NCBI RefSeq assembly: GCF_003977615.1
Contig: NZ_RYZR01000008.1
Location: forward strand, 186,001-250,000
Reading direction: 5' to 3'
DNA length: 64,000 bases
Source: Dyella dinghuensis
Lineage (GTDB): Bacteria; Pseudomonadota; Gammaproteobacteria; Xanthomonadales; Rhodanobacteraceae
This document shows, one piece after another, positions 16,645-32,654 of this stretch (position 1 is its first letter; every line of letters begins with the position of its first letter). The notes beneath the pieces are model-generated. The model did not search any database, had not been told where the DNA came from, and was given only the letters and a program-made list of their open reading frames with translations. The translations under genes were made by a program, and so were the position numbers.

Positions 16645-18147
16645 TTACTTCGACGTATCGGCCACATCGTGACGATTCCACCATCCGCCGCCAAGCGCCT
16701 GGAACAAGGCGACCGTGTCGGAGTAGCGGTTCGCACGCGCCTGAATCAAGGCGAGTTCGGCCTGGCGATACGTCACCTGCGCATTGAGCAGCGCGACCAT
16801 GCTGATGTCGCCCAGTGCGTATTGATGCTTCGCGATGTCCAGGCTGCGCGCCGCCGCGCGTTCGGCGCGTGCATCGGCCACCATTGCATCGGCATCGGCT
16901 TGCAGGGCGTGCAAGGAATCGGCGACGTTCTGCAAGGCGGACATCACCGTACTGCGGTATTGCTCGGCCGCCTGGCGATAATTCGCTTCGGCAGCGCGTT
17001 GGCGATGCAGCAACGTACCACCGCTGAAAAGCGGCGCCGTGATGTCGGCGCCGAGGTTCCAGAAGCCGGTACCGGAACCGAACAGGTTATGCATCTGATC
17101 GGCCGCGCTACCCCAGTTGGCGGTGATGTTGATGTTCGGCAGACGCGCCGCAAACGCGACACCGACCTGTGCACACGCCGCATGCAGATTCGCATCGGCC
17201 ATGCGCACATCCGGGCGCTGCTCTACCAGTCGTGCCGGCAGCGTCAATGGCAGATCTTGCGGCAATTGCAGTTCATCGAAATTGAACTGCGCCGGCACAT
17301 CCTGATCCGGTGAGCGGCCCGTCAGCACAGCGAGCAGATCACGTTGCTGCGCGAACTGCTTTTGCAATGGCGGCAGCGCAGCACGCGTTTGTTCCAGCGT
17401 GGCTTCCTGCGAGGCGATATCGGCGTCCGACATGTCGCCGAGTGCCATCTGTTTGCGATTGGTCTCCAGAATCTTCGACTGGCTATCGATCATGTCCTGC
17501 GTCGCAGTGATCTGCGCACGCAGCGATGCATCGCCAATCGCCGCGTTGACGACATTCGATGTCAGCGTGAGATACGTCGCTTCCAATTGAAAACGCTGCG
17601 CGTCGGCCTGTGCGACAAGCGATTCCACCTGACGCCGATTGGCACCCCACAAATCCGGCGTGTAGGAAATGCTCAATTGCGCAGTCGTGAGGTTGTAGAG
17701 CGTGCTGTTGGACGCAAGATTGCTGGACAGCACGTCACCGACTTTTTGCCGCGTCGGATCCACGCTGGTGCCAACTTGCGGATAGTACGCGCCACGCTGG
17801 GCTTTCACGCTTTCAACCGCCGACATCAACGCCTGCTGCGCAGCCGCCAGATCCGGATTGCGCTTGATCGAGTCGTCGATCAAACCATTCAACGGCTGGG
17901 AGTGGAACAGCGTCCACCACTGGCCGGGAATATCCATGCCCTGCACAAACTGCTGCGCGTCACCGCCCGGCCCCGGCACCGACGGTGTGGATTGCGCGAT
18001 CGGTGTAGGTGCGTACGTTTGCGCTGTTGGCGCTGCCGGACGATGGTAATTGGGCCCCACTGCGCAAGCGCTCAACGTGAGACCGATACCGATGGCGAGC
18101 GCAGTACGCCCAGCACGCCACGATGCGATGTTCTTGATGGCGTTCAT
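16645..18147 (-). CDS. RND efflux outer-membrane channel (OprM/NodT/CzcC type)
   Basis: A 500-residue lipoprotein channel that carries RND-pump substrates across the outer membrane. The lipobox LSAC (Cys28) follows a signal peptide, and the start CAVGPNYHRP is typical of the OprM/NodT group. Two outer-membrane efflux repeats are visible: YTPDLWGANRRQVESLVAQ in the first half and ADITAPLFSGGTLLHRQRAAEANYRQA in the second. The ATG at 18147 is 2 bases from the end of the pump gene and has GGAG before it, so the three genes form one operon: adaptor, pump, channel. Confidence 0.93.
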   Translation of the reverse strand: MNAIKNIASWRAGRTALAIGIGLTLSACAVGPNYHRPAAPTAQTYAPTPIAQSTPSVPGPGGDAQQFVQGMDIPGQWWTLFHSQPLNGLIDDSIKRNPDLAAAQQALMSAVESVKAQRGAYYPQVGTSVDPTRQKVGDVLSSNLASNSTLYNLTTAQLSISYTPDLWGANRRQVESLVAQADAQRFQLEATYLTLTSNVVNAAIGDASLRAQITATQDMIDSQSKILETNRKQMALGDMSDADIASQEATLEQTRAALPPLQKQFAQQRDLLAVLTGRSPDQDVPAQFNFDELQLPQDLPLTLPARLVEQRPDVRMADANLHAACAQVGVAFAARLPNINITANWGSAADQMHNLFGSGTGFWNLGADITAPLFSGGTLLHRQRAAEANYRQAAEQYRSTVMSALQNVADSLHALQADADAMVADARAERAAARSLDIAKHQYALGDISMVALLNAQVTYRQAELALIQARANRYSDTVALFQALGGGWWNRHDVADTSK

Positions 18148-18149
18148 GG

Positions 18150-21100
18150 TCAGATCTCCGCCGCCGATGGTGCGTGACCGAAACGCTTGTAGATGAAGTT
18201 CTCCAGCCCGTAATACAGCGCAGGAAGGATGAAAAGCGTTAACAGCGTAGCGATGGGCAAGCCACCTACCACGACCGTGGCCAGACCGCGCTGCACGTCG
18301 GTACCGACACCTGTTGCCAGCGCTGCGGGCAACATGCCGATGCTGGCGACAGTGGCTGTCATGAGCACCGGGCGGAATCGCTCGGTGGCACCTACTACCA
18401 CGGCTTCAAAGAGCGATAGGCCTTCTCGTCGAACGCGGTTGATGTTCGACACCATGATGATGCCGTTCTGTACTGCCACGCCAAATAGCGCAATGAAGCC
18501 CACCGCGGTCGCAATATTCAACGTTTCCCCGCGAAGATGCAGCGCGATCAGGCCACCCACTGTCGCGAGCGGCACGACGCCCAATACGAGCACGGCTTGA
18601 TGGAATTTGCCGAACTCGGCGAACAACAGCACAGCCATGATGGCCATCACCATGCCCATTACGACGGTCAGCCGCGCCTGCGCGCGTTGCTCGTTCTGAA
18701 AGTTACCGGCCCATTCAAGTTGGTATTTCGATTTGTCGTAGTGAACCTTCGCATCGATTTGCGCTTGCGCATCGGCGAGGTATTCCGACAAAGCGCGGCC
18801 GCTGTTTTCGATGCTGATCGTCAGTTCGCGCTGACCGTGTTCGTGTGCAATGGTGCTTTCGCCCATCGCCAATTTGACATGCGCCACCTCTTTCAGAGGA
18901 ACCTGCGCACCCGTGGTGGATGTCAACGGCGTCTCGCCAACGGCTTGCACGCTATTGGCGACTTCGTTGGCAACACGTGCGGTGACGTTATAGATGCGAT
19001 CCTCGACGTAGACCTGTGTGATCGGCGCGCCGCCAATAGCCGTCTGGATAAGGTTGGTGATGTCGCCGACGTTGACACCGTAGCGTGCTGCCGCATCGCG
19101 ATCGGCCGTGATCGTCAACTGGGGAATCGGCGGTTCCTGGAAGATCGCCGCATCTTCGGTGCCCCGCACACCCCTGATCACGTCGACCATCTGACCGGCG
19201 ACTTGACGCATTTCCTTGAAATCCTGCCCGTAGATGCGAAGCACCAACGGAGCATGCGCGCCGCCGATCATATCGTTCTCGCCGTCGATGATCGGCTGGC
19301 TGATACCGACGGTAATGCCTGGAATCTGCTGCAGACGCGCGTTGAACTTGCGCAGGAATTGCGCCTTGGTTTCCCCATGCCACGCGCTGTAAGGCGTCAA
19401 ACCCACACCGGCTTCAATGTGCGACGGCGTCCATGGATCCGAGCCCGTATCGTTGCGCCCCAGCTGCGTCACGATATACGACACCTCCGGGAACTCACGC
19501 ACAACCTTGCGCAATTGCGCGGCCATATCGCTAGCTTTATCCAGCGAGAGTCCCGTTGGCATCTGAACCTGCAACCAAAGCGCACCCTCATCCAGATCGG
19601 GCAGGAATTCACGGCCAATCGTTGCGCCGAGAATCAGCACGCCACAGAACGCGACGATGGCAATGCCGTAAGCAACCGGCAGGTTGTGCAGCAGTCTACC
19701 AAGAGTATGCGCAAAGCCTTCCTGCAGTCGTTTGAGCGGTTTGTTTTCGAATATCTTGCGAGGCTTGCGCAGGGCTAGGAATGCCAGCGCCGGCGTCAAT
19801 GTCACCGTACACAACAGCGCCGCCAGCAGCGCATAACTGACAGTGAACGCCATCGGCCGGAACAACTTTCCTTCCGCATGCTCGAAGGCGAACAGCGGGA
19901 AATACGCAGTGATAATGATCAAGGTCGCAAAGAAGATGGAGCGGCCGACGTGGCTCGTCACCAACATCACGTCCTTTTCGACCAGCACTTCCGTTGGTTT
20001 CATCTCGCGCTGCCGCAAGATCGCCTCGGTCACCACGATCGCACCGTCGACAATCACACCGAAATCGATCGCGCCCAGCGAAAAAAGATTCGCCGGCATG
20101 CGGGTGAATTGCATCAGGATGAACACCGTTACCAGCGACATCGGAATCGCGACGGCGGCAACAAGCGCGGATCGTGGACTGCCCAGAAAAAGGATCAGCA
20201 CGATGCAAACCAAACCGATGCCTTCCATCACGGTGTGGAACACTTTTTCTTTCGTGGCGACCACCAGATTGTCGCGATCGATATACGGCACGATCTTCAC
20301 GTCCTTCGATGCCAGCTGCTTGTTCAGCTCATCGACCTTGGTGTGAATCCCTTCCAGAACGCGTGATGCGTTTTCGTACTTCAGCAGATCACAGATGCCC
20401 TCGATCGTGTCGGGGTTGTTGTCCTTGCCGAGAATGCCCTCGCGCACCTGATGGCCGTAGCGCAACTTGCCAAGTTCGCGCACTAATACCGGCACGCCAT
20501 TATTTTGCGTGACGACAATGTCGCCAAGATCCTGCAACGAGTGCACCATGCCGATACCGCGCACGATGTAGGACTGCTCGCCGCGCGTAATGCGACCACC
20601 GCCCGCATTGGATGTGTTGTTGGATATCGCCGCGGTGACCTGACTGACGCTTACGCCGTAATGCAGCAGTTGTTGCGGGTCCAGCTCCAGCTGAAATTCC
20701 TTGGTAAAGCCGCCAAAATTATCGACGTTGATCACACCCGGAACCTGCTGCAATGCCGGAATGACGATCCAGTTCTGGATTTCGGACAGCTGCATCAGAT
20801 TTTGAGTCTTGGACTCCAGCGTGTAGCGATAGATTTCACCGGCCGGACCCGACACCGGATCAAGCCCTGGTGTCACGCCTGGCGGCAAGGTCACCTGGCT
20901 GATGTGCTCCAGCACGCGCTGGCGTTCCCAGTAATCGTCGGCGCCGTCCTTGAAAACCAGCGTGATGAGCGAGAGGCCGAACGTGCTGCTGGAGCGCATG
21001 CTGACCAGGCCCTGCGTATCGGCAAGGCCGCGTTCGAGCGGCGTGGTGATCTGCTGCTCGATTTCTTCGGCAGCCAGACCCGGCACCTGCGTGGTGACCT

Positions 21101-21242
21101 GCGCCGTCACGTCGCTCAATTCCGGATACGCCTCGATGGCCAACTGCGTCCACGAGTAATAACCGAAGATGAGAACGAGCACCGTCACCACGATAAACAA
21201 AATGCGCTTCTCGAAGCAGAAGCGAAAGAGTGCATTAATCAT
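18150..21242 (-). CDS. czcA: Heavy-metal efflux RND pump (CzcA/CusA family)
   Basis: A 1030-residue inner-membrane proton-driven transporter. Transmembrane segment 4 carries SLGAIDFGVIVDGAIVVTE: two Asp and one Glu in the DFG..VDG...E pattern of CzcA-type (Zn/Co/Cd/Ni) pumps, unlike the GAMVDAAIVMIEN pattern of the monovalent CusA. Other family landmarks are the start FRFCFEKRILFIVVTVLVLIFGYYSW, REFLPDLDEGALW, and GDGIND-free porter domains with RIYGQDFKEM. Its ATG overlaps the adaptor gene end by 8 bases. The exact metal cannot be fixed by reading. No cognate regulator or CzcD gene is seen nearby. Confidence 0.9.
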   Translation of the reverse strand: MINALFRFCFEKRILFIVVTVLVLIFGYYSWTQLAIEAYPELSDVTAQVTTQVPGLAAEEIEQQITTPLERGLADTQGLVSMRSSSTFGLSLITLVFKDGADDYWERQRVLEHISQVTLPPGVTPGLDPVSGPAGEIYRYTLESKTQNLMQLSEIQNWIVIPALQQVPGVINVDNFGGFTKEFQLELDPQQLLHYGVSVSQVTAAISNNTSNAGGGRITRGEQSYIVRGIGMVHSLQDLGDIVVTQNNGVPVLVRELGKLRYGHQVREGILGKDNNPDTIEGICDLLKYENASRVLEGIHTKVDELNKQLASKDVKIVPYIDRDNLVVATKEKVFHTVMEGIGLVCIVLILFLGSPRSALVAAVAIPMSLVTVFILMQFTRMPANLFSLGAIDFGVIVDGAIVVTEAILRQREMKPTEVLVEKDVMLVTSHVGRSIFFATLIIITAYFPLFAFEHAEGKLFRPMAFTVSYALLAALLCTVTLTPALAFLALRKPRKIFENKPLKRLQEGFAHTLGRLLHNLPVAYGIAIVAFCGVLILGATIGREFLPDLDEGALWLQVQMPTGLSLDKASDMAAQLRKVVREFPEVSYIVTQLGRNDTGSDPWTPSHIEAGVGLTPYSAWHGETKAQFLRKFNARLQQIPGITVGISQPIIDGENDMIGGAHAPLVLRIYGQDFKEMRQVAGQMVDVIRGVRGTEDAAIFQEPPIPQLTITADRDAAARYGVNVGDITNLIQTAIGGAPITQVYVEDRIYNVTARVANEVANSVQAVGETPLTSTTGAQVPLKEVAHVKLAMGESTIAHEHGQRELTISIENSGRALSEYLADAQAQIDAKVHYDKSKYQLEWAGNFQNEQRAQARLTVVMGMVMAIMAVLLFAEFGKFHQAVLVLGVVPLATVGGLIALHLRGETLNIATAVGFIALFGVAVQNGIIMVSNINRVRREGLSLFEAVVVGATERFRPVLMTATVASIGMLPAALATGVGTDVQRGLATVVVGGLPIATLLTLFILPALYYGLENFIYKRFGHAPSAAEI

Positions 21243-22359
21243 TGAGGAGCACTCCGCCCCGAACGATCACGCGATCACCTTGCTTTAGGCCCTTCAGCAC
21301 ACGCGTACCATCCGATTCGTCGTAGCTGATATCTACCGTGCGACGCTCGAACGTCCACGGCGAGACTTCGACGAACACAGTGACGCTGTCGTTGTTCATC
21401 AACAGCGCCGATTGCGGAATGAAGACTTGCTGCGGTTGCGGAATGTCGATGCTCGCGGTGGCGAACATGTTGGGTTTGAGCAATCCATCGGCGTTGGCAA
21501 ACGTTACGCGAACCAGATCGCGCCGCGTATCCGATTGCAGTACTGGATTGACGAAGCTGACGCTGCCATGGAATACCTTGTCCGGATAAGCCACCAGCGT
21601 GGCATCGACCTTTTGCCCTTTGGCGATCAGGCCCGAATCGCTTTCCGGCACATTCGCAGTGATCCAGACCAATTCGGTGTTCGAGATCGTCATCATCGAT
21701 GCCGTGGGATCGTTGACATACGTGCCCGGCGCGATCGTCAACGCCGTGATGTAACCCGTGATGGGTGCCGTCACTTGCATCGGTCGCGCTGTTTGCGCAT
21801 CGGGTTCACCGCCCACAGCAACCAATCGCGTGCGTGCACGGTCGTATTCGGCCTGCGCCTGGTTGTAACCGCTTTGTGCTGCTTCGAGATCCTTGACTGC
21901 ATTGCCGCCTGCAGCCTTCACGCCTAGCGCGCGATCGAGCGCCTTCTTCGCGAGATTCAATGCATCGCGTGCTTTGACGACATCGGAGTTCGCTTGCGCA
22001 AGATCGCCCGAGTCGATCACCGCGATCAGTTGTCCGCGCGTGACATGGTCGCCAAGCCCGACTTTCAGCTCGACCACTTTGCCCGTGAGCGCAGGAAGCA
22101 CATTGGCTGTGCGTGCGGGATCGGCTTCTACATTAGCGGGGAACGTCATCGTATGCGGCGCCTGATGCATTTCCACCGGCTGCACCACCAGCTCTTTGCG
22201 CAATGGCGAAGTGTCGGGAACTTTGTATTGATTGTTTTCGACGGTGAAGGCTGGCGGTGCTGCGCTTTCATCTGGACCATGTGAGCAGGCGGCCATGCTC
22301 AGAGCCATAGCGATCACGAGCGCGAGTCGCGTGGCTGATTTGTTCAATGGGTGAAGCAT
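21235..22359 (-). CDS. czcB: RND efflux periplasmic adaptor lipoprotein (CzcB type)
   Basis: A 374-residue membrane-fusion protein linking the RND pump to the outer-membrane channel. The lipobox MAAC is followed by SHGPDESAAPP. The lipoyl-like halves are VLPALTGKVVELKVGLGDHVTRGQLIAVIDSG and MQVTAPITGYITALTIAPGTYV, flanking an alpha-hairpin (about 125-185). Beta-barrel and membrane-proximal parts follow. Start ATG 22359 gives the lipoprotein signal; the longer frame to 22413 lacks a leader. It heads the czcB-czcA-channel operon. A 244-base upstream region contains GC-rich dyads. Confidence 0.9.
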   Translation of the reverse strand: MLHPLNKSATRLALVIAMALSMAACSHGPDESAAPPAFTVENNQYKVPDTSPLRKELVVQPVEMHQAPHTMTFPANVEADPARTANVLPALTGKVVELKVGLGDHVTRGQLIAVIDSGDLAQANSDVVKARDALNLAKKALDRALGVKAAGGNAVKDLEAAQSGYNQAQAEYDRARTRLVAVGGEPDAQTARPMQVTAPITGYITALTIAPGTYVNDPTASMMTISNTELVWITANVPESDSGLIAKGQKVDATLVAYPDKVFHGSVSFVNPVLQSDTRRDLVRVTFANADGLLKPNMFATASIDIPQPQQVFIPQSALLMNNDSVTVFVEVSPWTFERRTVDISYDESDGTRVLKGLKQGDRVIVRGGVLLND

Positions 22360-22443
22360 AGGTCTTCCCTTCGGCTGGGCGCTCGAACGCGTTTCCTGCG
22401 ACCACAAGGCCACAGAGCTGTTGCAAAACGGTGAAGGGGGAGC

Positions 22444-22603: not shown

Positions 22604-24271
22604 TCAGGCTTTTCCTTCTGCGGTATTGGGTGCAATGGGTTCGCGCACTAACCGGGCCTGCAAAAGACCGGCTCTTTCCAGCGGCAGATAGGCAATGGCC
22701 GCAAGATGCGAATGAATGCGCCGGAGGTCGCGCAGGATGCGCAGGTAGACATCGCCACCCCCGCCGTCGCGTTGCTCACGCAGGGCGCGAATGTGCCTGT
22801 CGGAGGCATCGTTTTCCAAGCGCCATAACAGTTCTTTACGTTCAACCAGTTGCTGTGCGGCGCGTAGATCGCCACGCATGAAAACGGTAATGCCAAGGCG
22901 AAGGCTTTCCATCACTTGCTCGTGCATCGCCGCAAGATCCTGGATGTCGTCGGCGGAAAAATCCTGTCCGCTTTTGGCCTTCTTTGCGGCGAATTCCATC
23001 ATGTTGTTCGCCGTGATGTCGCCGATATGCTCAATGTTCATGACGAACGCATGGATCTCCTGACTGCGCTCGCCGTCTTCCTCGTTCAACGCTTCACCGC
23101 CAAGGTCGGCGAGGTACTGACGGATGGCGATACCGAGGCGATCCAGCGATGGGTCCATGCGGCTGATCACTGCGGCGCGCGCTGCATCGTCCTTGCCGAA
23201 AATTTCGACCAGGTTCGCGAGCATGCTTTGGACCGTGTCAGCCATGCGCATGGATTCGCGCGTGGCATTCACCAGCGCGACACCGGCGCTTTCCAGCACG
23301 GATTCGTCGAGGTAAAGCGGCTGGCCCGGATCGGCGGGACGCGGCGGATCCGGTAGCAAACGCTCCAGCAGTCGCGCAAAACGCTCTGCGGGCAGAATGA
23401 AGATCAGCGCCAATCCGAGATTGAAGGCCGTGTGGAAATTCACTGCGATACGCGCGGCCGAAGAACCCAACGGCTCCAGCCAATGCGCAATGGGATGCAG
23501 TAACGGCAGACAGATGAGGCAACCCAGCGCGCGCGCCAGCGTGTTACCGAGCGGCAGGCGGCGCGCCATGGGCGTTTGCGCTTCCAGCAGTGCGGGCATC
23601 GTGCCACCCAGGTTCGCACCCAATACGAGTGCCAGTGCACCGGGCGCATCGATCACGCCTGCCGTGGCGAACGACATGATCAGCAGCACGACCGCCACAC
23701 TGGAATGACAGATCCACGTAAGCAACGCGGCGGCCAACAGCGCCAATACCGGCTCATCCGAGAGTGCCTGCAATGCGTCGCGCAAGAGCTTTGCGTTTTC
23801 GATCGGCGCCATCGTCAGCACGAGCAGATGCAGCGCCAAGAGCATCAAGCCCAGACCGATGCCGACGCGGCCGAGATTCTTCAGGCGCACATCGTCGCTG
23901 CGACGATGCATCGCGAAACCAAGCAAAATCAGGATCGGCGCGACGATGGCAATGTTGAACGACATCACCTGCACGATCAGCGTCGTGCCGACGTTTGCGC
24001 CCAGCATCACGACTAAGCCCGGCGCCAGACCCAGGAAACCGCTCGCGGCGAACGACGTTGCCATCATGCCCGTGGCGGTGCTGCTCTGAAGTAGCGCGGT
24101 GATGCACAGGCCAAACGCAAATGCCGTCGGACGCCGCCCGAGAAAATGGCCGAGCCCACGGCGAAGTGTGCTGCCGTATCCGCGCAGCACGCCGCTGGTG
24201 ACCATGTGCGTACCCCACAACAACAGGGCGACATAGCCGAAGATGTCAAAGAAAGCGAATGTGCCTTTCAT
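22604..24271 (-). CDS. Na/Pi cotransporter family protein with PhoU-like tail
   Basis: A 555-residue inner-membrane protein. It has two Na/Pi-cotransport repeats: the first carries ALLQSSTATGMMATSFAASGFLG, the second LTWICHSSVAVVLLIMSFATAGV. About eight hydrophobic segments lie in residues 1-310. A C-terminal helical PhoU-like domain (about 335-540) contains FVMNIEHIGDITANNMMEFAAKKAKSG. Proteins of this layout import or export phosphate with sodium. ATG 24271 is preceded by AGGAG (24285 region on the minus strand). It lies 250 bases downstream of mgtA on the same strand. Phosphate and Mg transport genes side by side would fit a shared need for Mg-phosphate balance, which is inference. Confidence 0.88.
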   Translation of the reverse strand: MKGTFAFFDIFGYVALLLWGTHMVTSGVLRGYGSTLRRGLGHFLGRRPTAFAFGLCITALLQSSTATGMMATSFAASGFLGLAPGLVVMLGANVGTTLIVQVMSFNIAIVAPILILLGFAMHRRSDDVRLKNLGRVGIGLGLMLLALHLLVLTMAPIENAKLLRDALQALSDEPVLALLAAALLTWICHSSVAVVLLIMSFATAGVIDAPGALALVLGANLGGTMPALLEAQTPMARRLPLGNTLARALGCLICLPLLHPIAHWLEPLGSSAARIAVNFHTAFNLGLALIFILPAERFARLLERLLPDPPRPADPGQPLYLDESVLESAGVALVNATRESMRMADTVQSMLANLVEIFGKDDAARAAVISRMDPSLDRLGIAIRQYLADLGGEALNEEDGERSQEIHAFVMNIEHIGDITANNMMEFAAKKAKSGQDFSADDIQDLAAMHEQVMESLRLGITVFMRGDLRAAQQLVERKELLWRLENDASDRHIRALREQRDGGGGDVYLRILRDLRRIHSHLAAIAYLPLERAGLLQARLVREPIAPNTAEGKA

Positions 24272-24521: not shown

Positions 24522-27188
24522 TCAGAGCCAACGTCCGTAGCGTTTGATGTAGATCAACTTTACGACCTGGGTCAGTGCGCAGTACGCAAGGACGGTTGCC
24601 GCAAGCCACGCGTAATAGATATCGGGCACCTGGACCATGCCGATCTTGGTGCCAATCGCTGTGTACGGGATGATCATGCCGATCACGATGATGGCTGTGG
24701 TCAACCCGAGCACCGGCGCCGCTGCAACACTTTGCAGGAACGGAATCTTGCGCGTGCGGATCATGTGCACGACCAGCGTTTGCGTAAGCAGGCTCTCGAT
24801 GAACCAGCCAGACTGGAACAACGATTGATGCACATCGCTGTTGGCGCCGAACACCCACCACAGCAACGCAAACGTGGTCATGTCGAAGATCGAACTGGTC
24901 GGCCCGATCCAGACCATGAAGCGCCCAATGTCACTGGCATCCCACTTGCGCGGCTTGCGCAGGTATTCCGGATCCATGCGATCGAAGGGAATCGACAGCT
25001 GCGAAATGTCGTATAACAGATTCAGCACCAGCACCTGCAGCGGAAGCATCGGCAGGAACGGCAGGAAGAAGCTCGCCATCACCATGCTGAGCACGTTGCC
25101 GAAGTTCGAGCTGGCCGTCATCTTGATGTACTTGATGATATTGCCGAACGTGATGCGTCCTTCGATCACGCCCTCTTCGAGCACCATCAGATTTTTTTCG
25201 AGCAGAATGATATCGGCCGATTCCTTGGCGATATCGGTCGCGGTATCCACCGAGATGCCCACGTCCGCTTCGCGTAGCGCGGGCGCATCGTTGATGCCGT
25301 CGCCGAGGAAGCCGACGGTATGACCTTGGCGTTGCAGCGATTTCACCACGCGCGCTTTTTGCAGCGGCGACATCTTGGCGAAGACCGTCGTGCGCTTGAC
25401 CAGCTCATCCAGCGCAGCATCGTCCAGCGGTTCGATGTCGCGACCTTGTGCGGAGTGCTCCACATCGAGACCGACTTCGCGACAGATTTTGCGCGTCACG
25501 GCCTCGTTGTCGCCGGTGATGACCTTCACTTCGACACCGTGGTGATGAAGTGCGGAAATCGCCGTCGCCGCCGTATCTTTCGGCGGATCGAGGAACGCCA
25601 GGCAACCGACCGCAGTCAACTCCGCCTCATCCGCCACGCCGTACGGACCTGAGCGCGGCGTTTCTTCCTTGATGGCCACCACCAGCACGCGCAAACCATC
25701 TTCGTTGAGATGGCGCGTCATCGCCTTGATCTCGCGACGACGCTCATCCGTCATCGGCACAACCTCGTCGCCACGCCGCTCCTTGGTGGCGATGGCGAGC
25801 ATCTCCTCCACGGCGCCCTTGCAGACGATCAAGTGATGACCGTTGCCGTTGGCGAGAACTACCGACATGCGGCGACGCTGGAAGTCGAACGGAATTTCGT
25901 CGACGACGCGATAGCGCGACACGATCGGCTCCAGATCGCGATGCGCCAGCACGGCCTTGTCCATCAGGTTCTTCAAACCCGTCTGGAAGTGGCTGTTGAG
26001 ATAGCCGTATTCCAGCGCGTCTTCGGAATCTTCGCCGTCCAGATCGAGATGGCGTTCCAGCACGATCTTGTCGAGCGTGAGCGTGCCCGTCTTGTCGGTG
26101 CACAACACATCCATCGCGCCGAAGTTCTGGATCGCGTTCAGACGCTTTACCACGACCTTGCGATTGGACATCGCAATCGCGCCCTTGGCGAGATTTGCGG
26201 TGACGATCAGCGGCAGCATTTCCGGCGTCAGGCCGACCGCGACGGACAGCGCAAACATCAGCGCATCCAGGAATCCGTGCTTGTAAAACTGGATCAGGAA
26301 AACAATCGGCACCATCACCAGCATGAAGCGGATCAGCAGCCAGCTCACGCTGCTTACGCCACGATCGAAACTGGTCTGCACGCGTTCGCCGACAATGGAA
26401 CGTGCGAGCGAACCCAGGTAGGTGCGGCCACCCGTCGCCGCGACGACTGCTGTCGCCGTGCCGCTGACCACGTTCGTACCCATGTAGCACACGGTGGGCA
26501 GGTCCAGCGGGTTGCCTTGCTGTGCGCCATGCGCGCCGCTTTCGACCACATGTGCCTGCGCCGGTCCCGCTTTCTCCACCGGCAGCGATTCGCCAGTGAG
26601 AATGGCCTGGCTTATGAACAGATCTTTCGCCGTCAGCAAACGCAGGTCCGCGGGCACCATGTCACCCGCCGCCAGATGCACGATGTCACCGACCACCAGT
26701 TCGCCCACCGGCACTTCGATGCGCTCGCTGTGCTCATCGGAGGCACGGCGCGTCACTGTGGCGGTGTTGCGCACCATCGCCTTCAGCTTTTCTGCCGCGC
26801 GCGAGGACCGATATTCCTGGCTGAAGCTCAGGAACACGCTGATAGCGACCATGACCGCGATGATGATCGGGCCAGACAAATCGTCCGGCGTAACGAAAAC
26901 CTGCACCACCGCCAGAATCAGCAACACGATGATGAACGGGTTCTTGAAGGCGCGCAGCAGCTGGAACGTCCAGTGCGGCGGCTTTTCGTGGGATACCTCG
27001 TTCACACCGTCGCGATCGAGCCGGTCGGTGATCTGCTCTTCGTTGAGGCCCGCCAGGCTGGTGTCCAGCTGGGCGAGCAGTGCATCGTTTTCGCGGAATG
27101 CTTCCTGCGCGGCAGCCACAGTCGGATGCGCAGGCGCAGCCTTGCCCGTGGCCTTGGCCGTAGCAGCCTGGTTGGATCGGTTCATCAT
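24522..27188 (-). CDS. mgtA: Magnesium-translocating P-type ATPase
   Basis: An 888-residue P3B-type ATPase that imports Mg2+ at low external magnesium. Motifs in order: TGES actuator loop (about 200), CTDKTGTLT with the phosphorylated Asp near residue 365, the KGA nucleotide-binding motif in HLIVCKGAVEEML, TGDN, and GDGINDAPALR in the hinge. Ten hydrophobic segments fit the family. The start is ATG 27188 (MMNRSNQ) with GGAAG upstream; the frame extends to a TTG at 27209 that is unlikely to be used. It is preceded by an unusual leader: promoter, short ORFs, terminator-like hairpin and an 84-codon ORF. Confidence 0.95.
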   Translation of the reverse strand: MMNRSNQAATAKATGKAAPAHPTVAAAQEAFRENDALLAQLDTSLAGLNEEQITDRLDRDGVNEVSHEKPPHWTFQLLRAFKNPFIIVLLILAVVQVFVTPDDLSGPIIIAVMVAISVFLSFSQEYRSSRAAEKLKAMVRNTATVTRRASDEHSERIEVPVGELVVGDIVHLAAGDMVPADLRLLTAKDLFISQAILTGESLPVEKAGPAQAHVVESGAHGAQQGNPLDLPTVCYMGTNVVSGTATAVVAATGGRTYLGSLARSIVGERVQTSFDRGVSSVSWLLIRFMLVMVPIVFLIQFYKHGFLDALMFALSVAVGLTPEMLPLIVTANLAKGAIAMSNRKVVVKRLNAIQNFGAMDVLCTDKTGTLTLDKIVLERHLDLDGEDSEDALEYGYLNSHFQTGLKNLMDKAVLAHRDLEPIVSRYRVVDEIPFDFQRRRMSVVLANGNGHHLIVCKGAVEEMLAIATKERRGDEVVPMTDERRREIKAMTRHLNEDGLRVLVVAIKEETPRSGPYGVADEAELTAVGCLAFLDPPKDTAATAISALHHHGVEVKVITGDNEAVTRKICREVGLDVEHSAQGRDIEPLDDAALDELVKRTTVFAKMSPLQKARVVKSLQRQGHTVGFLGDGINDAPALREADVGISVDTATDIAKESADIILLEKNLMVLEEGVIEGRITFGNIIKYIKMTASSNFGNVLSMVMASFFLPFLPMLPLQVLVLNLLYDISQLSIPFDRMDPEYLRKPRKWDASDIGRFMVWIGPTSSIFDMTTFALLWWVFGANSDVHQSLFQSGWFIESLLTQTLVVHMIRTRKIPFLQSVAAAPVLGLTTAIIVIGMIIPYTAIGTKIGMVQVPDIYYAWLAATVLAYCALTQVVKLIYIKRYGRWL

Positions 27189-27278
27189 GTCTCGCTTCCG
27201 TGGAATCAAGTTGCTTGCGATGCGGGAGGCGAGCGATGGGAGCTGCTGCCTCCTACGGCAATCCGCGTCCAGGGTGAC

Positions 27279-27328
27279 GCTCCCCAGACCGGCTAACCGG
27301 TGCTGGTGGAGGCCAACCCTTAGGGAGC
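27279..27328 (-). promoter_or_regulatory. Structured segment between leader ORF and mgtA
   Basis: Between the 84-codon ORF and mgtA an outer stem GCTCCC/GGGAGC (27279-27284 with 27323-27328) encloses a perfect hairpin ACCGG/CCGGT with loop CTAA (27288-27301). An alternative CCC-TAA-GGG hairpin (27318-27326) would break the outer stem. Such mutually exclusive pairing is typical of leader switches. No M-box (ykoK) consensus was recognised. Confidence 0.45.
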
Positions 27329-27341
27329 CGGGAATGGCGCA

Positions 27342-27596
27342 TCAGTGGCTTGATACCAGATGAAGATGACGAGACGTGCGCGGCGACTCCGCCGAGGAAT
27401 GCTCGTGCCAGCGAGACAGGGGGCGACCCTGGGCGGCTTCGATCTGCCAATGCATATCGATCGGAGCCCGGTCGGCCGCATTATTCAGCGGCTGAGGAAC
27501 GGTAACGGTACGGGGTGCGCGCACGACATCGCGGCGGCCGGTCAGGGGAAACCGCGCAGCGGTGCGAAGACGAAAGAAATCGCGAAGGAGCTTCAT
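27342..27596 (-). CDS. 84-residue ORF in the mgtA leader
   Basis: A small basic protein, MKLLRDFFRLRTAARF at the start, rich in Arg, Pro and Ser, ending HLHLVSSH. No transmembrane segment or known domain is seen. The ATG at 27596 has an excellent binding site GAGGAG (27605-27610) with 8-base spacing, which argues for real translation. That site is paired inside a long hairpin (27598-27645). It ends 153 bases before mgtA on the same strand. In enterobacteria mgtA is controlled by the short leader peptide MgtL, so a regulatory role is reasonable inference. It could also be a small protein that acts on MgtA. Confidence 0.6.
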   Translation of the reverse strand: MKLLRDFFRLRTAARFPLTGRRDVVRAPRTVTVPQPLNNAADRAPIDMHWQIEAAQGRPLSRWHEHSSAESPRTSRHLHLVSSH

Positions 27597-27597
27597 T

Positions 27598-27645
27598 GGC
27601 CCATCTCCTCAAAAACGGTGCTCACGGCACCGTTAGGAGCGGGCC
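27598..27645 (-). terminator. Attenuator-like hairpin that also pairs the leader-ORF Shine-Dalgarno
   Basis: On the minus strand an 8-bp core AACGGTGC/GCACCGTT (27627-27634 with 27614-27621) with loop CGTGA is followed by a run of T: an intrinsic terminator in the mgtA leader. The stem extends outward across the T-run: CTCCT pairs with AGGAG (27635-27639 with 27605-27609) and GGCCC with GGGCC (27641-27645 with 27598-27602). The AGGAG is the Shine-Dalgarno of the 84-codon ORF, so the same structure could stop transcription and block translation. Confidence 0.7.
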
Positions 27646-27653
27646 GGACTTCC

Positions 27654-27770
27654 CTAGTCGAGGAAAGCGCCGGCCAACCGCTGGCGGTTGCCGCGAACGA
27701 TCAGCTTGTTATGCAATGCCGGCACCCGATGCTCGCGGATGTCGACGTTGCGACTAGGGTAAACGTCCAT
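27654..27770 (-). CDS. Possible 38-residue upstream ORF in the mgtA leader
   Basis: A short open frame (ATG 27770, TAG at 27654) encoding MDVYPSRNVDIREHRVPALH and on to AGAFLD. AAGG lies only 3 bases before the ATG, a weak site. It ends 9 bases before the start of the attenuator-like hairpin, the usual spacing for ribosome-controlled attenuation. An alternative 35-codon frame (27701-27808) overlaps it. Both lie between the predicted transcription start and the hairpin. Coding status is uncertain. Confidence 0.4.
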   Translation of the reverse strand: MDVYPSRNVDIREHRVPALHNKLIVRGNRQRLAGAFLD

Positions 27771-27830
27771 ATGCCTTGGTTAGTTCGGACAGAGGCCCGG
27801 TCGGCCATAAGTGCGCCGGTGGGCGCGTGC

Positions 27831-27859
27831 ATTGTCATGCTGCGGTGCAAGGCTGTCAA
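27831..27859 (-). promoter_or_regulatory. Sigma70-type promoter of the mgtA leader
   Basis: On the minus strand TTGACA (27854-27859) and GACAAT (27831-27836) are separated by exactly 17 bases. Transcription would begin near 27824 and give a leader of about 636 bases before mgtA. The promoter lies just downstream of the ctaB stop, so mgtA need not depend on the oxidase-assembly operon. Confidence 0.75.
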
Positions 27860-27879
27860 CCCTCGGAAATAAACCTTCC

Positions 27880-28782
27880 TTAAGCAGCCTGATGCAGCGC
27901 AGCGCCTTGCTGTGCGAGGGGGCCCATAAGCCAGTGATCGGCCAGTAGAAAAGCAAAAAGTGCCATCAAGTAGATGATCGAATACTTGAAAACGCGCATG
28001 GCGAAGAATTCGTCCGGCGGGTTCATCAGGCGAATGGCGTAATACAGAAACCCTACGCCGAGAACGGCAGCGCCACCGAAATAGATCAAGCCACTGTAGC
28101 CGGTGATGGCGGGCAGCAGGCTCACGATCACCAACAGGATTGTGTAAAGCAGAATCTGCCAGCGCGTGTAGCGCACGCCGTGCGTCACCGGCAGCATCGG
28201 AATTTGTGCGCGGGCGTAGTCGTCGCGGCGAAAGATGGCCAGCGCCCAGAAGTGCGGCGGCGTCCATACAAAAATGATGAGGCACATTTGCAGCGCAAAG
28301 GGATGAAGTGCCCCTGTTACAGCTGTCCATCCAAGCACCGGGGGAATCGCACCCGCGAGGCCGCCGATAACGATGTTCTGCGGCGTAGCGCGTTTCAGAT
28401 AGGCGGTGTAGACCAGTGCGTAGCCGATCAAGCCGCCAAACGTGAGTACAGCGGTCAGCATATTGACCAGCATGCCGAGTATCACCATCGACAAAATACC
28501 CAGCACAACGGCAAAAATCAGAACCTGATGCGCATTGAGTTTGCCGGTAGCCAGCGGACGACGCGCAGTGCGCGCCATCAGCTTGTCGATGCGTTCGTCG
28601 ATCAGATGATTGAACGCCGCCGCGGAGCCCGATGCCATCCAGATGCCGAGGGTGCCGAAAACAAGCGCGCGCCACGGCGGAATGCCCGGCACCGCGAGAA
28701 ACATGCCGATGACGGCGCAGAACACCAGTAGCGCCACAACGCGTGGCTTGGTGAGCTGCAGGTATTCACGAGCCAGACTCAT
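27880..28782 (-). CDS. ctaB: Protoheme IX farnesyltransferase (heme O synthase)
   Basis: A 300-residue UbiA-family membrane enzyme that adds a farnesyl group to heme B, giving heme O for the terminal oxidase. Motif [25 protein letters not shown] carries the first Asp-rich site; the second region reads [23 protein letters not shown]. About nine hydrophobic segments are visible. Its ATG overlaps the ctaA stop by 4 bases (ATGA), so the two heme A enzymes are coupled. Also named cyoE. Confidence 0.96.
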
Positions 28783-31298: not shown

Positions 31299-31514
31299 GT
31301 GGAAACCATTTACAAAGTCGCGCTGGTGATCATGTTCCTGGTGGTGATATTCAACCTGGGCCAGGCGCTGTATTTCATGATGACCGACAAGGATCAGAGC
31401 AAACGCACCGCTTGGGCGTTGACGCGGCGCATTGGCTTTTCCTTGGTGCTCATCGCCATGGTGATCGTTGGTATCAAGCTTGGCTGGATTCACCCGCATG
31501 GGGTGGGTCAATAA
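31299..31514 (+). CDS. Twin transmembrane protein (DUF2909-like)
   Basis: A 71-residue protein with two hydrophobic helices (about 6-26 and 44-64) separated by a charged loop, MTDKDQSKRTAWALTRRIGF. Small proteins of this form are regularly found between cox structural genes and SURF1 in gammaproteobacteria; their role in the oxidase is not established. The start is probably GTG 31299, giving METIYKVALVIMF; upstream in-frame codons lack a binding site. TATACT at 31263-31268 could be the -10 element. It is divergent from SURF1 and convergent with coxC. Confidence 0.8.
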   Translation: METIYKVALVIMFLVVIFNLGQALYFMMTDKDQSKRTAWALTRRIGFSLVLIAMVIVGIKLGWIHPHGVGQ

Positions 31515-31522
31515 GCCGCCTC

Positions 31523-31630
31523 GCTCGTCATTCCGGCGCAGGCCGGAATCCAGTGTCCGCTGACTTCACTCATTCCTGAAATTACCGGCGTTGTCGTCAC
31601 TGGATTCCGGCCTGCGCCGGAATGACGAGC
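31523..31630. repeat. Inverted GTCATTCCGGCGCAGGCCGGAATCC repeat, copy 1
   Basis: Two 33-base arms (31523-31555 and 31598-31630) are perfect inverse copies, 42 bases apart. Each arm itself contains a small palindrome (TTCCGGCGCAGGCCGGAA). Two related pairs occur at 36278-36383 and 39703-39819. This is a REP/MITE-like family of the widespread GTCATTCC type, with no encoded protein. It lies between convergent genes. Confidence 0.85.
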
Positions 31631-31721
31631 CAAGAAAAGCCATTGTAACGAGACGCTTGCTTCGACGCCCGGCCCGCGACATTTAGCGCCCGCGTTTGCT
31701 GCGTGTAGGAAGGCAAGACAC

Positions 31722-31750
31722 AAAAAAGCCCGCCAATGGCGGGCTTTTTT
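31722..31750. terminator. Bidirectional terminator after coxC
   Basis: A perfect palindrome (AAAAAAGCCCGCC, ATG-centred loop, GGCGGGCTTTTTT) gives T-runs on both strands. It ends the coxB-coxA-coxC transcript on the minus strand and stops transcripts from the plus-strand DUF2909 gene. Confidence 0.9.
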
Positions 31751-31766
31751 GCTGAGCACCGAGCGC

Positions 31767-32654
31767 TCAGAGAATGTAGACGAACATGAAGAGCCCCAGC
31801 CAAACCACGTCCACAAAGTGCCAGTACCAGGCAACCGCTTCGAACCCGAAGTGGTGCTCTTTGCTGAAGTGGCCAGCCAATACACGCAGCCAGATGATCG
31901 CCAGCATGATCGTACCCAGCGTCACGTGCAGACCGTGGAAGCCGGTAAGCATGAAGAACGTGCAGCCATACACGCCACTACCGAGCGTGAGGTTCAGTTC
32001 CTTATAGGCCTCCATGTACTCGTGCGCCTGGCAGTACAGGAACGAGGCGCCCAGCAGCACAGTGGCCCCCAGGAACAGCAACACCTTCTTGCGATGACCG
32101 GCGATAAGCGCATGGTGCGCAATGGTCACCGTGACGCTTGAGCTAAGCAGAATCAGCGTATTGAGCAGCGGGAGACCCCACGGCCCCACCGTTTCGAACG
32201 CACCGCCGACATGCGCCGGGCCGTTACCGCCGCCCGAGCCCCACGATGCAGCGTAGTCGCTCCAGATGTATTGATGCGTCAGCACGCCATGGCCGTAACC
32301 ACCCAGCCACGGCACCGAGAACATGCGGATGTAAAACAGTGCACCGAAGAACGCGCCGAAGAACATCACCTCGGAGAAGATGAACCACATCATGCCCATG
32401 CGGAACGAGCGATCCACCTGCGTGTTGTAGCTGCCGGCCATCGACTCGTGAATCACCGAGCGGAACCAGCCGAAGAACATCAGCAGGATGCCAATGAAAC
32501 CGATCATCAACACCGTCTTGCCGAAGCCGGTATCGCCCGGTTCCGCATTGAGCCAATGTGCGGCGCCGAACACGGTGAGGAACATGACCACCGCAGCCAC
32601 AATCGGCCACTGGCTCTTGCTCGGTACGTAGTAAATGTCTTGCTGCTGACCCAT
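31767..32654 (-). CDS. coxC: Cytochrome c oxidase subunit III
   Basis: A 295-residue integral membrane subunit of the aa3 oxidase with seven hydrophobic segments. Signatures: SEVMFFGAFFGALFYIR, WPPGG-like turn replaced by the PWGLPLLNTLILLSSSVTVTIAHHAL segment, GFHGLHVTLGTIMLAIIWLRVL, and a C-terminal WYWHFVDVVWLGLFMFVYIL. It follows coxA and a 60-residue membrane protein on the same strand and is followed by a strong terminator. The gene ends at the last oxidase structural subunit of this operon. Confidence 0.97.
   Translation of the reverse strand: MGQQQDIYYVPSKSQWPIVAAVVMFLTVFGAAHWLNAEPGDTGFGKTVLMIGFIGILLMFFGWFRSVIHESMAGSYNTQVDRSFRMGMMWFIFSEVMFFGAFFGALFYIRMFSVPWLGGYGHGVLTHQYIWSDYAASWGSGGGNGPAHVGGAFETVGPWGLPLLNTLILLSSSVTVTIAHHALIAGHRKKVLLFLGATVLLGASFLYCQAHEYMEAYKELNLTLGSGVYGCTFFMLTGFHGLHVTLGTIMLAIIWLRVLAGHFSKEHHFGFEAVAWYWHFVDVVWLGLFMFVYIL

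Follow-up and report, generated by a model that had tools for sequence, protein, structure and literature searches.

Organization of the locus

The window, a 64,000-nt stretch of Dyella dinghuensis DNA, carries on its minus strand the magnesium transporter gene mgtA, which is preceded by a promoter and a leader with two upstream ORFs (uORF1 and uORF2) and followed by further transport genes.

27831-27859, minus strand: promoter, with the -35 box TTGACA at 27854-27859, a 17-nt spacer and the -10 box GACAAT at 27831-27836 (promoter scan)
27641-27781, minus strand: conserved leader element, 141 nt (covariance models CM R1/R2 and leader alignment)
27654-27770, minus strand: uORF1, 38 codons, MDVYPSRNVDIREHRVPALHNKLIVRGNRQRLAGAFLD, with its stop TAG inside the P1 3' strand/ALT loop (ORF list and relatives)
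27342-27596, minus strand: uORF2, 84 codons, MKLLRDFF...TVTVPQPL...SRHLHLVSSH (ORF and protein-level selection)
27303-27321, minus strand: conserved motif AAGGGTTGGCCTCCACCAG between uORF2 and mgtA (spacer alignment)
24522-27188, minus strand: mgtA, Mg2+ P-type ATPase, with a probable ATG at 27188 (TIGR01524, 1259 bits; cut-off 611)
22604-24271, minus strand: Na/Pi cotransporter with PhoU domain (profile matches; has its own element in other genomes)
21235-22413, minus strand: CusB/CzcB-type adaptor (within the 16645-22413 set; own element elsewhere)
18150-21242, minus strand: RND pump (within the 16645-22413 set; own element elsewhere)
16645-18147, minus strand: outer membrane factor (behind the adaptor and RND genes)

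The TTGACA-17-GACAAT promoter was found where the original prediction had placed it (27859-27831), as were the 38-codon ORF, a hairpin at 27598-27645 with its proposed stems, the 84-codon ORF and mgtA. The promoter was the sole promoter-like site in 26800-28400, for which shuffled sequence gave a mean of 0.5. The exact TTGACA-N17-GACAAT pattern was present in 51 of 115 distinct upstream regions and a looser pattern in 88 of 115, and the ATG of uORF1 lay 57-61 nt behind the -10 box in 66 of the 68 copies with the exact pattern. The promoter spacer (27837-27853, GCANCGCAGCA) was itself conserved, and TTTAT recurred upstream of the -35 box in close relatives as a possible activator site. A 35-codon ORF had also been proposed; its ATG at 27808 does exist, but the start is missing in several relatives, L006, L007, L012, L013 and L015 among them, which leaves a role for this ORF unsupported. 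L008 carries TTG at this start.

Distribution of the leader element

The element was first seen as a near-invariant stretch of about 141 nt when the leaders of relatives were aligned. Using the broader covariance model R2, it was detected in 157 of 233 family genomes and in 21 of 26 genera, with up to four copies per genome; the BLAST count was 158 of 233, a few of them marginal. Identity was 97-100% within the genus among the matches listed and about 75-97% in other genera. The named-genome scan yielded 96 stretches, and the 80 listed came from Dyella, Rhodanobacter, Luteibacter, Frateuria and Fulvimonas as well as from less precisely named or mislabelled records. One contig labelled Candidatus Eremiobacteraeota (L264) carried an element of the window's genus and is probably a mislabelled or contaminated bin.

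In an order-wide scan, 102 of 398 genomes matched at E 0.1, three of them outside the family and all three weak. The latter (G354, G409 and G496; E 0.057-0.09; L188-L190) lay in unrelated-looking DNA and were taken as chance. A class-wide sample of 369 genomes gave the element only in the genome of the window (E 0.05, strict filters), and the exact element pattern was present in no viral contig scanned. At the gathering threshold, Rfam gave no match in the whole window or in six diverse relatives, and a search of 27180-27900 at E up to 10 gave a single unrelated hit, which was neither the enterobacterial Mg sensor nor the M-box. The leader had been predicted to differ from the enterobacterial Mg leader, and the lack of a match to that Rfam family agrees with this. 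The element was also not described in the titles and abstracts of the literature searched on mgtA leaders, riboswitches and RNA motifs in Xanthomonadales/Rhodanobacteraceae.

Because element identity is high and the arms of its hairpin co-vary, the leader is, judged from its sequence, real and far beyond chance. The family-wide alignment that had been proposed with the original prediction recovered both the covariation of the hairpin and the conservation of the 38-codon frame. The long-range P1 helix between the start and stop regions of uORF1, the ALT hairpin that competes with it, the regulon of several genes and the standing of uORF2 as a conserved small protein, all described below, were absent from that prediction.

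Translation of uORF1

Of the 96 distinct copies of type 1, 93 kept the frame of uORF1, starting at ATGGAC and closing at a shared TAG. Among the divergent loci (L162-L187), 25 of 26 ended near the same place, 19 with TAG and 6 with TGA, and the TGA stop in L168, L174 and L175 came with a matching P1 change (by eye). When length changes were placed on the tree, 11 of 14 in uORF1 were multiples of three, compared to 5 of 45 in the adjacent control stretch from the uORF1 stop to uORF2 (Fisher p 4e-6); one of the three uORF1 changes that were not is an artefact, since L050 was mis-measured at a second TAGG. Lengths of the control stretch fell in all three classes (48, 34 and 29 of 111). The kept frame and the excess of threefold changes indicate a leader ORF under selection for being translated, and the conserved frame rules out a view of uORF1 as structure only. 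Control by upstream translation had been proposed for this locus, and the conserved start, frame and stop bear it out.

The MDxxP start was almost invariant, with ATGGAC in 161 of 161 elements and Pro5 in 160 of 161. Many type-1 copies shared the ending R-S-A-G-A-F (each residue in 79 to 92 of 93), and the body of the peptide differed between subtypes. No synonymous excess was found in 93 copies of uORF1 (119 changes, 124 +/- 9 expected), and selection on the peptide was rejected on this count. Since the frame and stop are kept, yet the peptide is without synonymous excess, translation of uORF1 seems to matter more than its product. By eye, its Shine-Dalgarno sequence (SD) is weak and closely spaced (AAGG, 3 nt). 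Between the uORF1 stop and the GGCCC of the SD hairpin there are 8 nt.

Four exceptions were all counted as misses. The frame was lost in L075 and L087, where the leaders remain. The copy at L078:1681-1826, which comes from genome bin G227 (1.5 Mb), has lost Pro5 and the two strands of P1, and P2 (by eye) and uORF2 remain. In L176:3001-3148 the uORF1 stop was lost, and the frame reads 58 codons into an overlap with the uORF2 start (TCATGA).

Alternative RNA structures

A long-range helix, P1, and a competing hairpin, ALT, were identified together with three other hairpins.

27751-27759, minus strand: P1 5' strand (region 1), CCCTAGTCG, uORF1 codons 4-7, pairing with 27652-27660 (RNAalifold)
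27652-27660, minus strand: P1 3' strand (region 2), CGACTAGGG, holding the uORF1 stop codon (covariation counts)
27718-27747, minus strand: P2 hairpin, CGTCGACATCCG / CGGGTGCCGGC (covariation counts)
27672-27694, minus strand: P3 hairpin, GCGGCAACCG / CGGTTGGCC (RNAalifold and covariation counts)
27642-27675, minus strand: ALT hairpin, GGCCGG-CGC-TTTCC / GGGAA-GT-CCGGCC (covariation and arm swap)
27598-27645, minus strand: SD-masking hairpin, GGCCC/GGGCC, CTCCT/AGGAG and core ACGGTGC/GCACCGT (covariation and arm swap)

ALT cannot form together with P1 or with the outer part of the SD hairpin. RNAalifold run on 70 diverse copies returned P1 (CCCUAG.. with ..CUAGG), P2 and P3 unprompted. In an alignment of 97 copies drawn from two subtypes, pairing held in 97.1% of cells and 15 of 23 pairs had changes on both sides, compared to 5.2 +/- 1.5 in shuffles and at most 8 in slid versions; this alignment was fitted to the structure model, and its counts lean towards it. 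In alignment A1, which was not fitted, both-side changes were seen in 8 of 26 pairs of the P1 structure (shuffles 1.8, slid at most 6). The count for the ALT structure was 11 of 26 (shuffles 2.3, slid at most 6), and both structures were read off the same sequences that were used for testing.

In P1, UA had become CG at two pairs, at one of them in 6 and at the other in 2 of 97 copies, and no double change on a single branch was found for it in type 1. P2 had both-side changes in 4 of 10 pairs (70 copies), and both of its half-helices were 97.6-99.5% paired (97 copies), with one inner position (A/C) mostly unpaired. P3 had both-side changes in 3 of 9 pairs in the 70 copies and 7 of 9 in the 97 copies. 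ALT occurred in variant forms, GGCCCG/CGGGCC in L168 and L174, GGCTGG/CCAGCC in L163 and AGCCGG/CCGGTT in L164. Compensatory changes were present in the core and outer stem of the SD hairpin, and its middle CTCCT/AGGAG pairs were kept in 51-98% of copies.

RNAalifold run on the 3' part of both subtypes (75 of 104 stretches) misaligned the SD hairpin and gave 7 pairs only, and an arm-swap test was used instead. In all four subgroups the arms of this hairpin co-varied, with a mean of -18.8 kcal/mol for the own duplex compared to -11.3 to -14.0 for swapped arms. For P1, own arms were modestly better in three of four subgroups and no better in the Luteibacter-like subgroup. For ALT, the result was clear in one subgroup (own -20.3, swapped -16.9 kcal/mol); two of the other three were about equal and one was slightly reversed.

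Strict covariation was assessed by a G-test with APC and a tree-based phylogenetic null. Only columns 202-212, the core of the SD hairpin, clearly passed (E below 0.025); the next pair had E 2.6, and most of the remaining top pairs were clade differences. Double changes on single branches numbered 16 in 62 tested pairs, which include flanking, partly unpaired ones, and none of the 16 was in P1. Random controls gave 128 in 3864 column pairs and 56 in 1010 pairs that were more than 80% paired. On these sequence comparisons, the SD hairpin is the best supported helix, and covariation backs P2, P3 and ALT, and P1 more weakly. The compensatory changes and co-varying arms also uphold the proposal that a hairpin masks the SD of the 84-codon ORF. 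In several copies the ALT loop is 3 nt shorter (e.g., TTTCC-ACTA-GGGAAA in L109 and L113), and because of this cut P1 and ALT are probably alternatives in the short-loop copies and not a pseudoknot.

uORF2 and the spacer to mgtA

uORF2 accumulated 1053 synonymous changes where 754 +/- 22 were expected and kept an invariant TVP; for this count, 87 copies had been selected out of 116 on the basis of their first residues. A match to uORF2 at E 0.01 or better was found in 26 of 60 other genomes, and in G023 and G050 it was found without MgtA in the fetched stretch. No Pfam or NCBIfam family matched it. By its codon changes, uORF2 is a conserved small basic protein. The second subtype was accompanied by a different-looking uORF2.

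A second structured segment had been predicted at 27279-27328. Its clearest conserved part is the short motif at 27303-27321, with the consensus cgcAa.Gg.TGGCCtCCgCCa in 57 aligned spacers of 107; the other 50 were dropped because GGAAGC..ATG was not found. A motif like GCAAGGGnTGGCCTCCGCCAG at the same position is conserved across genera and could form a small hairpin whose loop holds CTCC. A hairpin masking the SD of mgtA itself is suggested by the presence of 7 or more pairs in 70% of the 57 spacers, compared to 31% of shuffles.

Genes behind the element

mgtA lay behind the element in 100 of the 106 type-1 loci fetched, some of which overlap (e.g., L028 and L136). One of the remainder was at a contig edge, and five (L065, L067, L069, L071 and L143) led to an RND-adaptor-like gene, assigned by resemblance only. 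Genes of the 26 divergent loci were assigned from downstream ORFs and motifs, with Pfam run on ten representative proteins. Eight of these loci led to NRAMP genes, five to an RND adaptor and pump (L168, L174, L175, L177 and L178; by motif, L168 by Pfam), four to a Na/Pi-PhoU gene (L171, L180, L181 and L187; by motif, L171 by Pfam), four to mgtA (L185 by resemblance), three to a TonB receptor about 1-1.6 kb away, one to a speD-like gene with no NRAMP gene seen and one to a Na/H exchanger. Behind mgtA, the window itself has Na/Pi-PhoU, adaptor and RND genes that resemble those with their own element elsewhere. A link to Mg2+ is not obvious for the TonB receptors, the RND pumps and the Na/H exchanger.

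A single NRAMP protein was tested, that of L164, and its closest solved relative was EleNRMT, which transports Mg2+ (E 4e-54, against 8e-20 for the next). The TxxA of helix 6 was present, and helix 1 read DAGA where EleNRMT has DAGG (the NRMT criterion is DxxG plus TxxA/T). Because the element precedes both mgtA and NRAMP genes, the tested one being nearest to a Mg2+ transporter, Mg2+ is the likely signal, in line with the original prediction. Since the copies precede two different kinds of Mg2+ importer and the RNA is folded and translated, the element is probably a low-magnesium switch worked by the ribosome.

In L180:401-600 and L181:401-600 the element occurred without uORF2, and the SD hairpin sat directly on the start of the Na/Pi-PhoU transporter gene. 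Going by this placement, the hairpin serves to gate whichever ORF comes next. A strong MgtA match was present in 154 of 157 genomes with the element and in 41 of 76 without it (listings compared by eye), so mgtA also occurs without the element. This by-eye comparison left three genomes, G021, G176 and G205, with the element but no MgtA match; the G205 contig breaks off within the gene. At L164:1267-1746 and L165:797-1297 the element is followed by an AdoMet decarboxylase-like gene (Pfam AdoMet_dc), which in L164 precedes the NRAMP importer. In Salmonella, polyamines are reported to substitute for Mg2+.

Proposed mechanism

We consider it reasonably probable that the element acts in cis as a leader RNA and that the position of the ribosome on uORF1 sets how strongly Mg2+-starvation genes are translated. 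The parts, their conservation and covariation, the frame and stop of uORF1 and the genes behind the copies are read from the sequence; from these we infer Mg2+ as the signal, ribosome drop-off as the sensor, the direction of the switch and the step from uORF2 to mgtA. Region 1 (CCCUAGUCG, codons 4-7) would pair with region 2 (CGACUAGGG, the uORF1 stop) to form P1, leaving region 3 (CCGGCC) free for region 4 (GGGCC plus the SD) so that uORF2 is shut. At low Mg2+, ribosomes that start uORF1 would slow or drop off at the acidic/proline start MDxxP and cover region 1, and ALT (2:3) would form during RNA synthesis, removing the outer clamp of the SD hairpin and allowing uORF2 to be expressed. A ribosome that completes uORF1 would end inside the ALT loop and break it. 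Expression of mgtA, about 150 nt on, may follow that of uORF2 by translational coupling, by protection from premature termination, in the way that the M-box leader of M. tuberculosis is protected from Rho, or through the uORF2 protein itself.

Folding calculations agreed with this model in part. Mutually exclusive structures coupled to an ORF were found, with P1 only weakly covarying and no release of the SD at equilibrium. In 129 copies, masking region 1, which rules out P1 by construction, took the mean ALT pairing index from 0.12 up to 0.62. When ALT was forced, opening the SD cost 3.2 kcal/mol less on average and less in 123 of 128 copies, which partly follows from topology by construction. 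In equilibrium folding the SD was about 83% paired in every state, region 1 masked included, and the P1 state was about 11 kcal/mol better than ALT. With the SD paired at equilibrium and P1 favoured, switching would have to come from folding kinetics or from the ribosome. Against the ribosome model, MDxxP has one acidic residue, and both codons lie in an RNA-constrained stretch.

A bolder reading, which we hold only tentatively and think rather doubtful, is that the element represents a novel class of RNAs that sense Mg2+, with an aptamer-like fold laid over the nucleotides of a translated frame and one family serving a whole Mg2+-starvation regulon. The start region and stop codon of the uORF would then be the two strands of the switch helix, and Mg2+ could have two readouts, one through the folding of the RNA and one through the stability of the ribosome. 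The regulon would take in two importer classes, polyamine synthesis, and phosphate and metal export.

Comparison with known systems

The enterobacterial mgtA leader with MgtL combines a translated leader ORF with alternative stems before mgtA. The leader described here also has a translated ORF and alternative stems before mgtA, but it has no Rfam match, its uORF1 is not proline-rich, and its output appears to be translational, on a second uORF.

As outlined in PMC4072509, M-box RNAs before NRMT genes are a case of one RNA family serving classical and NRAMP-type Mg2+ importers, as the element seems to do; unlike them, the element is without an Rfam M-box match and overlaps a conserved reading frame. 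The pe20 M-box of M. tuberculosis, in the description given in PMC12810186, is a Mg2+-linked leader with two uORFs in which the RNA gates a conserved small uORF2 by alternative SD/anti-SD pairing and translation protects from Rho. The present leader resembles it in the two uORFs, the gating of a conserved small uORF2 and the alternative SD/anti-SD pairing, and probably in the link to Mg2+; it differs in having no Rfam M-box match.

A likeness to mgtQ, the sORF between mgtC and mgtB of Salmonella, is drawn from the description in PMC8092293, not from a sequence comparison. Both are short ORFs with Asp2 and an early proline, a Mg2+ transporter downstream, and 1:2 plus 3:4 pairing set against 2:3, where 3:4 hides the ribosome binding site of the next gene (PMC8092293). 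According to the same account, which established this logic experimentally, mgtQ needs Asp2 and Glu5: they lower mgtQ translation and raise mgtB, an effect attributed to region 1 staying covered when the ribosome is destabilised. By that description the present ORF differs in being mostly 33-41 codons long, lying 5' of the operon and having its stop in region 2; in addition, its immediate target is a second uORF, and several operons have a copy of the element in front of them. The best reading of the analysis is that a low-Mg2+ regulon is controlled by the ribosome on uORF1, which would choose between P1 and ALT as in mgtQ. The regulatory logic is of a known kind; what appears to be new is the RNA family, its regulon and the way a reading frame overlaps the switch helix.

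Alternative explanations

It is unlikely, though worth weighing, that the element is instead a Mg2+-binding riboswitch in which a P1-P2-P3 aptamer closes P1 on Mg2+ and shuts the SD hairpin, with translation of uORF1 being secondary. Near-invariant stretches outside the helices (GGCAUAUGGACGU), the multibranch P1/P2/P3 fold and the likeness of the P1/ALT/SD arrangement to riboswitch platforms would fit, and M-box riboswitches control NRMT genes elsewhere (as reported in PMC4072509). The kept frame and stop of uORF1, with the TGA stop in 6 divergent copies, are left unexplained.

Classical attenuation by nascent peptide or codon supply, in which a stall on uORF1 opens the SD hairpin, is improbable. 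A stop 8 nt before the hairpin and the common R-S-A-G-A-F ending in type 1 would suit it, but there is no synonymous excess (119 changes, 124 expected), no run of a single codon, and the peptide body is subtype-specific. We give very little credence to a conserved uORF2 gene that merely has a structured 5' UTR and is constitutive or controlled by its promoter alone: uORF2 is under protein selection and the promoter pattern recurs (88/115), but the alternative structures, the element without uORF2 in L180/L181 and the kept frame of uORF1 speak against it. The same holds for the proposal that the hairpin at 27598-27645 and a T-run stop RNA polymerase as a terminator/antiterminator leader, since the TTTTT behind the core hairpin in the window has a counterpart of 4 or more T in just 8 of 111 distinct copies and the scanner did not call the site terminator-like, so that the original claim of an intrinsic terminator fails as a general output.

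If the favoured account of ribosome-controlled switching is true, much of one bacterial family controls Mg2+ uptake by an RNA without a match to either the M-box or the enterobacterial leader, and ribosome-based Mg2+ control would have been invented independently. The 157 genomes would form a natural series for separating coding from structural constraint on the same nucleotides. A Mg-type NRAMP importer, a speD-like gene, a Na/Pi-PhoU transporter and RND efflux would be candidate members of the Mg2+ regulon, and in uORF2 an uncharacterised conserved small protein would be brought to light.

Elsewhere in the window, at 31500-31900, ORF translations with recurring HSGAGRNP / RRRPESS were observed; the stretch is intergenic and looks like a dispersed palindromic DNA repeat.
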